A stretch of 59,626 nt of DNA, taken from positions 1 through 59,626 of the forward strand of contig JAFLVI010000004.1 of the NCBI GenBank assembly GCA_022508405.1. The letters are read 5' to 3'. This DNA comes from Clostridiales bacterium. GTDB lineage: Bacteria > Bacillota > Clostridia > Christensenellales > Pumilibacteraceae. Shown here piece by piece: positions 37,716 to 43,675 of this stretch (its first letter is position 1; every line of letters starts with the position of its first letter). Position numbers and translations under genes: made by a program. The notes under the pieces were generated by a model. That model did no database searches, was not told the DNA's origin, and worked only from the letters and a program-made list of their open reading frames with translations.

Positions 37716-40323
<2,608 letters not shown>

Positions 40324-40331
<8 letters not shown>

Positions 40332-42174
40332 GGTCGCCCTTCAAAAAATACATTGAAAATTCATTTAACGCATCGTCTATTCGTATTCCGTCGTCCATGG
40401 TAATCTCTCCGCCGTGAGCGAGTCTGGCGGAAATATCCGAATATTCAATATCGAAATACTTTAAAAATTTGTCCTTAAACTCCGATACACGTTGCACGGG
40501 AATGTTTTTTATTAAATCTTTGGTTGTCAAATACAAAAGAAGTATCTGATGTTCTTCCCGCATGGGCATGTGCACGTCTTGTTTGATTATTTCGGTCATG
40601 CGCTTGCCTTTTTCCAGCATGCGCGAAGTAGTTTCATCCAGTTCCGCACCGAACTCAGCAAAAACAGCAAGTTCTCGGTACTGCGCCAAATCAAGCCGCA
40701 GTTTGCCGGACACCTTGCGCATGGCGCGACTTTGTGCGCTTCCGCCCACACGCGACACCGAAAGCCCAACATTTATTGCGGGACGAATACCGGCATTAAA
40801 CAAATCGCTTTCCAAAAAGATTTGTCCGTCGGTAATCGAAATAATGTTGGTGGGAATATACGCGGAAATATCGCCGGCAAGCGTTTCAACTATAGGCAGT
40901 GCGGTAATCGATCCGCCGCCCAGCTCAGGACTCAACTTTGCCGCACGTTCCAATAACCGCGAATGCAAATAGAAAATATCCCCAGGGTATGCTTCTCGAC
41001 CGGGGGGTCGCTTTAACAGCAAGCTCATTGCGCGGTACGCCACGGCATGCTTGGACAGATCGTCGTAAACTATAAGCACATCCTTGCCTGCGTACATAAA
41101 CTCTTCGGCTATGGCGCAGCCCGCATACGGAGCGATGTACTGTAAAGGTGCGCTGTCCCTTGCCGTTGCGCTTACGATAACGGTATAGTCCATTGCGCCG
41201 TGCTCGGTAAGAGTGTTGACAATGTTAGACACGGTGGACGACTTTTGCCCGATTGCAACGTACACGCAAATTACGCCCTTACCCTTTTGGTTGAGTATGG
41301 TATCTACCGCTATAGACGTTTTGCCGGTCTGTCTGTCGCCAATAATAAGCTCGCGCTGACCGCGACCTATTGGTATCATGGCGTCCACCGCCAAAATACC
41401 CGTGTTCATGGGCGTATTAACTTTATCTCTGTCTTTAATGGCAGGCGCATTCGCCTCGATAGCGCGGTATTTATCGGGTACAAACTCGCCCAAACCGTCT
41501 ATAGGCTTGCCCAAAGGATTTACAACACGCCCCAAAAGCTTTTCACCAACGGGCACGGAAACAATCATGCCGGTTGTTTTTACGACCATGCGCGCCGAAA
41601 CCTTATCGTCGTCGTCAAGCACAATCGCGCCCACACTGTCCTCGGATAGGCTTAGCACAATCGCCTGCGTGCCGTTTTCTATTTCCAACATTTCGCCGTA
41701 CTCGGCATTGGATAGACCGGAGCACATGATAACGCCGTCACCGCAAAACTCCACGCTTCCCGCTTGACGGGGCGCAAATGATTTTTTGTACTGTGCGACC
41801 TTGCCGAAGAGCTCGTTATCGGTATGAGTTTTTATATACTCGGCGGAAGCGCCGTCCGTAGGTAATGGCGCACTTTCGCTTGTGGTTGATTTTGCTTTAA
41901 CTTTACCTTTGCGCCGCTTTGGCGTTGCGGCCTCTACATAGCTGTCGCTGTGCCGAAACGCCCCGCTAATATTGTCTATTTGCGAGCGCAACGTTCCGTC
42001 ATAATATTTATCACCGTCCACAACGAGTATTCCGCCGATAAGTTCCTTGTCTATCGTATAAACAAACTCAACATTATCTTTGGGATGCTTTGCGCAAAAA
42101 ACATCTTGTATTTTGCGCTTTTGCTCATCCTTTAGCTCTGTTGCGGACGATACTTGAATGACGATATCACGCAT
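40324..42174 (-). CDS. atpA: ATP synthase alpha subunit with fused N-terminal delta (OSCP) C-terminal domain
   Basis: The 616-aa protein is about 110 residues longer than normal alpha. Residues ~3-73 match the C-terminal domain of the delta subunit: [13 protein letters not shown], then [18 protein letters not shown], then [11 protein letters not shown], the AtpH signature. A Lys/Ser/Pro-rich linker (~76-118) leads into normal alpha, with [14 protein letters not shown] (~141), Walker A GDRQTGKT (~279-286) and [14 protein letters not shown]. There is no ATG, GTG or TTG in frame at residues ~110-130, so alpha cannot easily be made alone. atpH is missing from the operon, and this start shares one base with the atpF stop. 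The delta N-terminal domain is absent. Confidence 0.93.
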
Positions 42175-42692
42175 CAGTCATTCTCCCAGTCGGACAAGAC
42201 TTGCTCGATAAGCGCGTTGTTGTCGTCTTCGGTGATTTCGCGTTCCAAAAGCTTTTGCGCGACCTGAACAGCCAGATTGTTTACGCTGTTACGATACTCG
42301 CCCTTAAGCTGTTCCATCTGCGTGGCAGATTCCTTTTTTGCCGCGTCGACTATGCTTTTGGCTTGTTCCTGCGCTTCGGCAATAATGGCGTCCGCTTTGG
42401 CTTGCGCCGCTTCCGCAGCGGTGGCGGCGTTGCGCGCGTTTTCCAACTTTAACTGTTCCATCTTTTTGTTGTATTCCGCGTCACGAGTTTCGCTTTCCGC
42501 TTTAAGCTTTTCGTTTTCGGCATACACTTCGTCAAGATTTTCGCGCTTTTTCTTGAGCATGTTTTTTACCGGCTTGTACAATAGTCCAATCATAGCCGCA
42601 AGCAGTATCAAAAAATTTACAGCATAAAAAAGCATTGACTTCCAGTCAAGCCCGAAAACTTCCAGTATGTTGGCGCTAACTAACTGCAACAT
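42174..42692 (-). CDS. atpF: F1Fo ATP synthase subunit b
   Basis: Peripheral stalk subunit. The 172-aa protein has one membrane segment at residues ~20-40 ([18 protein letters not shown]), then a long charged coiled coil rich in Ala, Glu and Lys up to ~130. The normal C-terminal end [24 protein letters not shown] follows. Nothing delta-like is attached to it, which matters because atpH is missing and in mycobacteria delta is fused to a b subunit instead. Its stop overlaps the start of atpA by one base. Confidence 0.95.
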
Positions 42693-42699
42693 AGTTATC

Positions 42700-42957
42700 T
42701 CACATTACTATCAGCATGATAGCAATCAAAAGTCCGTAAATAGCCGTGGTCTCGCAAAACGCCAAACCGATAAACAGCGAAGAACGTATCTGTTTGGTCG
42801 CTTCGGGCTGACGCGCCATGCTCTCCACCGCCTTGCTGGTGGATATACCCATGCCGATAGCGGCGCCTACGCACGCCATAGAAGCAAGTCCCGCACCCAA
42901 AGCGGCCATGCCTTCCACTCCCAAAAATGCCATAACGGCAGACAAAAATACTTGCAT
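42700..42957 (-). CDS. atpE: F1Fo ATP synthase subunit c
   Basis: Ring-forming rotor lipoprotein of 85 aa with two membrane helices (residues ~12-36 and ~60-84) joined by the conserved polar loop SMARQPEA. The ion-binding glutamate is in CETTAIYG (~68-75) in helix 2. E-T-T-x-x-Y resembles the sodium-binding set of Ilyobacter-type c rings. The glutamine of helix 1 that completes that site is replaced by methionine (GMG). Coupling ion is therefore uncertain. It lies between atpB and atpF with gaps of 16 and 7 bases. Confidence 0.94.
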
Positions 42958-42973
42958 AATTACCTCCGAACAG

Positions 42974-43639
42974 CTATTCGATAGCTTCGTTAATAAAGTT
43001 CATAGACAGGAACATAAATATATACGCTTGCATCAGCGCGTGGAACAGCGTAAAAAGCGGTTCCAGCAACACAGGCAAAATATTGCGTAGCGCGGTTTGG
43101 TAAACAATATCCATGATTAAATAGCCGGAAAAAACGCTGCCAAAAAGCCTTAGCGCCATGGAAAACGGCACTACGCAGTCGGTCACAAGCGGTATAACGG
43201 CGCCGTAATGAGTAAGCCGCCTTGTACGCTTTTTCATAAATCCGATAATCAGGATAGCGAAAAAAGTGATTAAGCCCAAAATTATATTGCAGTTTAAATC
43301 GGACAACGGCGCGCGCAGTCCGAATAATTCGATAAGTATCCCAAACATTATAAAAGCCGAGCAACCGAAGTATATTGCGCCTACCGCGCCTGCATAACCT
43401 TCCGTCATGTCTTTTGAATTGTTGTCGAAAAGCCCTACCGACCATTCCACCGCCATGCGAAATCCCGACGTGTGCTTTAGATCGTTGTTCCAGCGCGGTA
43501 TAAAAAACACACGAACGACAAGTGCAAACAATATAAGCGCAATCGTAACAACCATTGTTGAAAACATTGTTACGGTAATATCAAAACTGCCTATACTATA
43601 AAGCACCTTTGGCGCGATTGTGGGTAAATCGAATTCCAT
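42974..43639 (-). CDS. atpB: F1Fo ATP synthase subunit a
   Basis: Stator channel subunit with about 5-6 membrane segments. The essential arginine is in [16 protein letters not shown], and [12 protein letters not shown] and [15 protein letters not shown] complete the C-terminal half. I chose ATG 43639 (MEFDLP), giving about 221 aa. A TTG eight codons earlier lies upstream of the predicted transcription start. It heads the operon atpB-E-F-[delta-A]-G-D-C. Only seven bases separate the promoter -10 box from the ATG, so the mRNA is probably leaderless here. No atpI or atpZ precedes it. Confidence 0.93.
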
Positions 43640-43646
43640 CGAGCCT

Positions 43647-43675
43647 AATATATCACTTTGCAATAGTTATTGCAA
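43647..43675 (-). promoter_or_regulatory. Sigma-A promoter of the ATP synthase operon
   Basis: TTGCAA (43675-43670) and TATATT (43652-43647) on the minus strand, 17-base spacer, TGA extended -10. The -10 box ends seven bases before the atpB ATG. Confidence 0.7.

Follow-up and report, generated by a model that had tools for sequence, protein, structure and literature searches.

A delta C-terminal domain joined to the ATP synthase alpha subunit across a clostridial order, with possible consequences for stalk number

The window, the whole stretch of 59,626 nucleotides that was analysed (contig JAFLVI010000004.1 of a Clostridiales bacterium), carries on its minus strand, from 43663 to 37716, an operon for an F-type ATP synthase in the order atpB-E-F-[deltaCTD-alpha]-G-D-C, where CTD stands for C-terminal domain. 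Genes for subunits a, c, b, alpha, gamma, beta and epsilon are all present, all on the minus strand. The operon begins with atpB (subunit a, TTG start, 42974..43663; PF00119, E 4e-19) and continues with atpE (subunit c, 42700..42957; PF00137, E 5e-20) and atpF (the stalk subunit b, 172 amino acids, 42174..42692; PF00430, E 2e-15), the last being covered full-length, 1-154, by a b profile built for the analysis. Beyond the fusion gene lie atpG (subunit gamma, 39495..40331; PF00231, E 3e-61), atpD (subunit beta, 38081..39511; PF00006, E 1e-73, and PF02874) and atpC (subunit epsilon, TTG start, 37716..38084), which was recognized by its position in the operon and by a seed search across loci; used as the seed, it found one open reading frame per locus in 71 loci. 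Read by eye, subunit c has the ETT..Y stretch of the ion site, with Met at the apparent position of the Gln usual in sodium-type subunits.

The fusion gene (40324..42174, ATG start) encodes 616 amino acids, made up of the delta (OSCP) CTD, a linker and a complete alpha. Residues 4-70 match positions 103-169 of the 172 in PF00213, the OSCP family (E 3.3e-13 for the whole protein and 2.9e-14 for residues 1-108 alone, both above the gathering score), and the same stretch matches delta chains in the PDB, e.g., PS3 6n2y (E 2.5e-8). Judged by these matches together with the AlphaFold2 (AF2) model and dN/dS, the CTD takes up residues 1-72 (41959..42174). There follow a linker rich in Lys, Ser and Pro (about residues 73-110, 41845..41958), delimited by dN/dS and pLDDT, and the alpha N-terminal helix (AF2 helix 111-127, 41794..41844), identified from predicted secondary structure and by alignment with unfused alpha N-termini and retained despite the loss of the delta N-terminal domain. 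The alpha body (residues 139-616 and the stop, 40324..41760) contains the beta-barrel, nucleotide-binding and C-terminal domains, seen by Pfam as PF02874 (139-202), PF00006 (259-474) and PF00306 (481-606), and TIGR00962 (atpA) covers residues 125-610 with 724 bits. PF00213 positions 103-169 and TIGR00962 together place a delta CTD on the N-terminus of alpha in one open reading frame. The start is preceded, 8 nt to its 5' side, by GGGAG (42183..42187), which on reading the sequence resembles a ribosome-binding site. The atpF stop TGA (42174-42176) overlaps the fusion ATG (42172-42174) by one base, and an in-frame TGA (42178-42180) stands two codons upstream of that ATG. This rules out any coding sequence joined to the 5' side of the frame and leaves no space for atpH.

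Beyond the fusion itself, no second OSCP match (PF00213) was found in the whole window genome, which is 82% complete, and a search for a full two-domain delta within the 616-residue frame matched only positions 103-169. A profile made from 15 delta N-terminal domains was run over 20 genomes. It recovered the domain in all six full-delta genomes (E 1e-32 to 5e-37), four of which (G308, G230, G300, G438) had supplied rows to the profile and two (G400, G545) had not. In 13 genomes with only a mini-delta (a stand-alone, CTD-only delta), CTD-alpha or b-CTD-alpha, the window's included, it found no N-terminal domain below E 0.028; among the three of these that are single contigs, G067 and G089 gave no match at all and G157 gave E 0.028. 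The weak matches in G000 (E 0.046), G157 (0.028) and G231 (0.077) were rejected as short and partial, lying in frames of 1553, 259 and 422 amino acids. Weak traces of the domain were seen inside two fusions of full delta to alpha (9e-6 in G545, 0.0044 in G515). The delta N-terminal domain was thus detected neither in the fused frame nor in the window genome at its 82% completeness, and G067 and G089 agree. An earlier, sequence-only reading had described an AtpH C-terminal signature at about residues 3-73 of the 616-residue alpha, in an operon with no room for atpH, with no separate atpH and with the delta N-terminal domain lost; these points are supported, and its coordinates, 41950-42174, are correct (residues 1-75).

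The same fused frame is present in 18 of the 19 congeners examined, the exception (G008) being a genome 78% complete and in 410 contigs. For the window and six congeners (21 pairs; for the linker and N-helix stretches, 16 pairs with finite dS), median dN/dS was 0.085 in the CTD, 0.29 in the linker (residues 73-118), 0.185 in the alpha N-helix stretch and 0.04 in alpha. These values are rough, with synonymous changes close to saturated (median pS 0.60-0.67). Purifying selection acts on the CTD. The linker evolves fast, conservation being lowest, of the stretches compared, over residues 73-118, and median identity over all genus pairs is 0.63 for the CTD vs 0.81 for alpha. An AF2 monomer model from a 45-row alignment has a middling mean pLDDT of 74.8, with block means of 81-93 over residues 1-60; pLDDT drops below 50 at residues 90-101, and residues 111-127 form a helix. 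When the model was searched with Foldseek, chains I, K and J of PDB 9jc1, an engineered fusion discussed below, ranked 1, 2 and 4, with alignments of 601-604 columns. Likewise, 9jc1_I was the best match (E 6e-45) of a profile built from 31 CTD-alpha N-termini.

Could alpha also be made without its CTD? From the CTD to the alpha barrel, the window frame has a single ATG, GTG or TTG codon, the GTG of residue 141, in the first barrel strand and with only GGA upstream; the sequence-only reading had reported none around residues 110-130. The search for a conserved internal start in this interval covered the fused loci up to L141, those of the window's genus and order as distinct from L158-L184 of the class and phylum, and found none in the window's genus. 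The commonest internal codons there are GTG valines at -4 and +2 of the barrel, in some congeners only, mostly behind no more than three Shine-Dalgarno-like bases. Loci L011 and L081 have no internal start codon. At L081 (G054), the joint is 17 residues long and without any start codon, so every alpha there bears a CTD unless cleaved. Fused loci of other genera do include some with an in-frame ATG, GTG or TTG behind AGGA or GAGG (e.g., L067, L085, L088, L111, L117, L118, L123, L125), and in these some bare alpha may be made from internal starts.

A search with PF00213 over 396 genomes of the order gave matches at E up to 1 in 214, over the cut-off in 186. Among the matches listed (150 rows), there are 33 deltas of full length, 39 frames of 71-136 amino acids that stand alone and contain just the CTD, 75 rows (74 genomes) in frames of at least 417 amino acids and 3 frames of 236-249 amino acids with an internal stop. 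Two of the last, from G194 and G221, yield open reading frames of 72 and 80 amino acids (L107, L112); the third is from G256. With profiles built for the analysis, 123 loci from many genera were classed as CTD-alpha (C, 59, including five from the window and its congeners), mini-delta (B, 36), full delta (A, 17), b-CTD-alpha (E, 4), two CTDs on alpha (D, 2), full delta on alpha (F, 2), full delta with doubled CTD (1), N-ATPase-like (1) and unclear (1). The partial locus L129 stood outside the classes, and the unclear L189 was excluded from trees. The close relatives named are metagenome-assembled genomes, and most of the other genomes are drafts of several contigs. Loss of the delta N-terminal domain is common in the order, either as a stand-alone mini-delta or as CTD-alpha fusions.

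Pfam confirms individual loci: the 746 amino acids of L123 contain PF00430, PF00213 and the domains of alpha, each over the cut-off, L118 has two OSCP stretches, L172 and L173 have OSCP 26-171 and 35-172, and the 73-residue frame of L109 is OSCP 104-172. In the C fusions, 17 to 88 residues separate the end of the CTD profile from the barrel. The b-CTD-alpha triple fusions (L115, L121, L123, L125, from G231, G300, G318, G326) start with the membrane helix of b, read by eye. Among the matches listed, five genomes have triple-fusion frames (G231, G300, G318, G326, G368), four of them without another OSCP match. In the operons of L115, L121, L123 and L125, the profile match of the separate b gene ends at 127-139 of 154, the usual C-terminal stretch being missing. 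L185 (4665-5561) encodes a stand-alone delta of 299 amino acids with one N-terminal domain and two tandem CTDs, and one atp operon (L127) has two adjoining c genes, at 2409 and 2733.

Outside the order, among the matches listed, OSCP C-terminal matches lie in frames of at least 500 amino acids in 18 of 157 genomes of the class (G497 below the Pfam cut-off, four of the full-delta-on-alpha kind) and in at least 7 of 159 genomes of the phylum. A profile search of genome contigs brought at least 80 loci, 72 of them non-clostridial by title (mostly Bacteroidota) and used as a contrast: none of the 72 is fused, and the remaining eight comprise seven fused loci and one mini-delta. Some genomes have a full-delta operon and a fused operon together, fetched as the pairs L192+L165, L195+L166, L193+L181, L194+L182 and L140+L121 (G438, G469, G684, G611, G300); by class listing, G545 and G497 have both as well (fused loci L172, L171).

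On a tree of alpha plus beta (122 rows, quick model), the CTD-alpha label takes 20 changes, of which well-supported branches force at least 12. A more careful, order-centred tree of 59 rows requires 12 changes of the fused label, with 10 forced; these are changes and not gains, fusion and fission counting alike and transfer being possible. That all fusions of the order clade go back to one origin was rejected (AU p 1.9e-47, 59 rows), as was a single clade of all mini-deltas (p 6.5e-12). For the window's family, one fused clade is compatible with the data (p 0.20).

None of the 18 classed loci with an intact delta N-terminal domain (17 full delta, 1 doubled CTD) is fused; the fused frames classed comprise 65 without the domain and 2 with a decayed one. 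These counts fit the N-terminal domain as a bar to three copies; by our own reasoning, three intact copies on one F1 would clash, and this may explain the counts. At the N-terminus of alpha, a PEEIS..IK-like helix pattern occurs in 13 of 17 full-delta rows but in 0/36 mini-delta and 0/59 CTD-alpha rows, and elsewhere in D 0/2, F 0/2, doubled-CTD delta 0/1, N-ATPase 0/1 and E 2/4, figures that are descriptive only, as the pattern was picked after viewing the rows, which are themselves related. Judged by eye, a helix-like stretch persists at this place in most B and C rows, though not in L081 and L130. The distribution of the pattern fits a helix freed from binding the delta N-terminal domain.

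A textbook ATP synthase has one stalk and one a subunit, and its ion/ATP ratio is thought to be set by the size of the c-ring. In E. coli the stalk contacts the N-terminal helices of all three alphas, by an interface that differs from one to the next (PMC5214741). According to Ueno et al. (2025, PMC12229609), one alpha meets the C-terminal region of delta and two meet the N-terminal region; the N-terminal domain, they argue, limits stalks to one by lying on the threefold axis. The rule was broken in 2025 by a CTD-alpha fusion built in the laboratory. According to passages of the same paper, the engineered deltaDeltaN-alpha FoF1 of Bacillus PS3 can have as many as three b2 stalks, every one accompanied by an a subunit; by cryo-EM, 0, 1, 2 and 3 stalks were found in 15, 51, 26 and 8% of particles, one stalk being commonest. 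Subunits a and b were raised 2.2x and 1.8x, H+/ATP was 5.8 vs 3.0, and proton pumping was below wild type. The window protein resembles this construct (PDB 9jc1, delta residues 2-104 removed) in having the CTD on the alpha N-terminus and no other delta, and its model matches structurally over the whole length. It differs in that the PS3 protein was made by hand with a "short linker", in an enzyme whose epsilon C-terminal domain was removed and whose stalks were counted, whereas in the window the linker is about 40 residues long and the operon includes its own atpC. Nor is the fusion as such new. The sequence-only reading knew of no described delta-alpha fusion, yet the kind is named in one 2025 passage: the discussion in PMC12229609 notes, besides the PS3 construct, a natural fusion without the delta N-terminal domain in Acidaminococcus fermentans, for which its authors rate a multi-stalk enzyme highly likely, and gives UniProt G4Q3K6 and A0A1I2C5T3 as similar. 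The design is that of the window, in other bacteria, and the passage comes without survey or phylogeny. What is new here is breadth: the spread across the order, the CTD-only mini-delta as a common state, repeated switching, and the D, E and F variants, none of which was found in the literature searched. A table note that resembled an earlier report of delta within alpha concerns b of Azospirillum B510, not delta.

Delta CTDs without the N-terminal domain occur in another natural setting, subunit b of the N-ATPase (TIGR03321), represented by L190 (so called by gene order), where b matches PF00213 positions 104-170 (E 2e-5). L190 differs from the window in bearing the CTD on b, in its beta-first gene order and in its unfused alpha, and an N-ATPase was rejected for the window, which has the canonical order, a 172-residue b without an OSCP match and a TIGR03324 score of 587 bits, below the cut-off of 750.5. 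The mycobacterial b-delta protein keeps the delta N-terminal domain. In it (PDB 7jg5, 8j0s), delta is likewise fused to another subunit, and its C-terminal part matches the window CTD, but it sits on b, not on alpha; this type is excluded for the window, where a separate atpF ends at 42174. The b-CTD-alpha relatives (L115, L121, L123, L125) are like the window in that the CTD is joined to alpha with no N-terminal domain in the fusion, and unlike it in placing a b with N-terminal membrane helix before the CTD and in having a second, separate b gene.

We give a little better than an even chance to the view that the window protein is a natural deltaDeltaN-alpha, whose F1 would offer three equivalent docks. 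At least some of the molecules would most likely bind two or more b2 stalks, with a separate a subunit for each, and so move more ions per ATP. The delta CTD, which holds the b2 stalk, would be carried covalently by every alpha, and all three docks might then be used. By analogy with the PS3 enzyme, extra stalks and a subunits would raise the ion/ATP ratio, and the enzyme could work at a low proton (or sodium) motive force. The strongest case for three docks and multiple stalks is the b-CTD-alpha fusion: with a membrane helix on the b that precedes alpha, the unprocessed complex would have three membrane-anchored b. The sequence-only reading had spoken of three stalk-binding domains per F1, which is supported, and of a covalent link standing in for the lost N-terminal domain, a fair surmise; of the two outcomes it foresaw, one CTD in use with two idle or a different stalk, the second is backed by the built PS3 enzyme (PMC12229609), and it had not considered several stalks.

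It may instead be that one CTD binds b2 while two stay idle or cap the F1 crown, the link merely replacing the N-terminal domain. We find this doubtful, though it deserves serious weight. Single-stalk particles are the commonest class in the engineered enzyme (PMC12229609), and within the genus alpha is better conserved than the CTD. The multi-stalk reading is weakened by the proton pumping of the engineered enzyme, which falls below wild type (PMC12229609), by the long linker of the window, set against the short one of PS3, and by a model of the monomer alone. Against a single stalk, the subunit ratios and H+/ATP of the engineered enzyme point to about two stalks (PMC12229609), the many switches of fusion state would come more easily if three CTDs per F1 already worked in the stand-alone state, and a b-CTD-alpha triple fusion would make little sense with one stalk. 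A mixture of one CTD-alpha with two bare alphas, arising by internal initiation or by proteolysis of the linker, is improbable. The linker is long, variable and partly predicted to be disordered, so cleavage is conceivable, and in other genera a number of fused loci show an internal start codon behind AGGA or GAGG. However, among the loci up to L141, the GTG codons of the window's genus are unconserved and mostly have weak Shine-Dalgarno sequences, the window having one such codon and L011 and L081 none, and several fusions have joints of only 17-43 residues. Finally, since the window comes from a draft assembly, of which it is a single contig, atpH and atpA might have been joined by assembly, binning or frameshift error, a fault that the sequence-only reading itself raised as one that would undo the finding. 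This is scarcely credible, given the same frame in the congeners, in single-contig G067 (L088) and G089 (listed frame) and in records L198-L204, and given purifying selection on the CTD.

To return to several stalks per F1, a wider proposal, to which we would give somewhat less than an even chance, is that multi-stalk ATP synthases are widespread. Throughout the clostridial order, and anew elsewhere in the Clostridia, F1 would have become threefold symmetric on losing the N-terminal domain, with up to three stalks and a subunits per c-ring; CTD-alpha would lock this state in, and b-CTD-alpha would force three membrane-anchored b, an F-type counterpart of the three-stalk V-ATPase. If this is true of these natural enzymes, evolution can also adjust ion/ATP gearing through the number of stalks, as would suit anaerobes that live on small ion gradients. 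The question is made testable by the many natural carriers, found in several lineages, and by a triple fusion with a would-be hard-wired stalk number.

It is a matter of speculation that small primary ion gradients would suit high gearing. Of 13 genomes of the genus, 11 have a match above the cut-off to the sodium-pumping decarboxylase family OAD_beta (PF03977), among them that of the window (as a partial frame), and RnfC is present in 4 of 13, the window genome not being among the four. A second rotary-ATPase-like frame (G000:C63:5165-5773; 442 amino acids, 31% identity to alpha) probably encodes a subunit of the V/A type, which could mean that this genome has two rotary ATPases.

Small orphan proteins that consist mostly of a delta CTD are encoded at L186 (6072-6554, 6677-7099 and 10513-10848, minus strand) and L187 (5314-5706 and 5713-6222, plus strand). 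They are 111-169 amino acids long, with PF00213 E values down to 6.5e-21, and no atp genes were found near them in the stretch fetched. Those of L186 adjoin a MoxR-like AAA ATPase and a von Willebrand-type protein, both named by eye.
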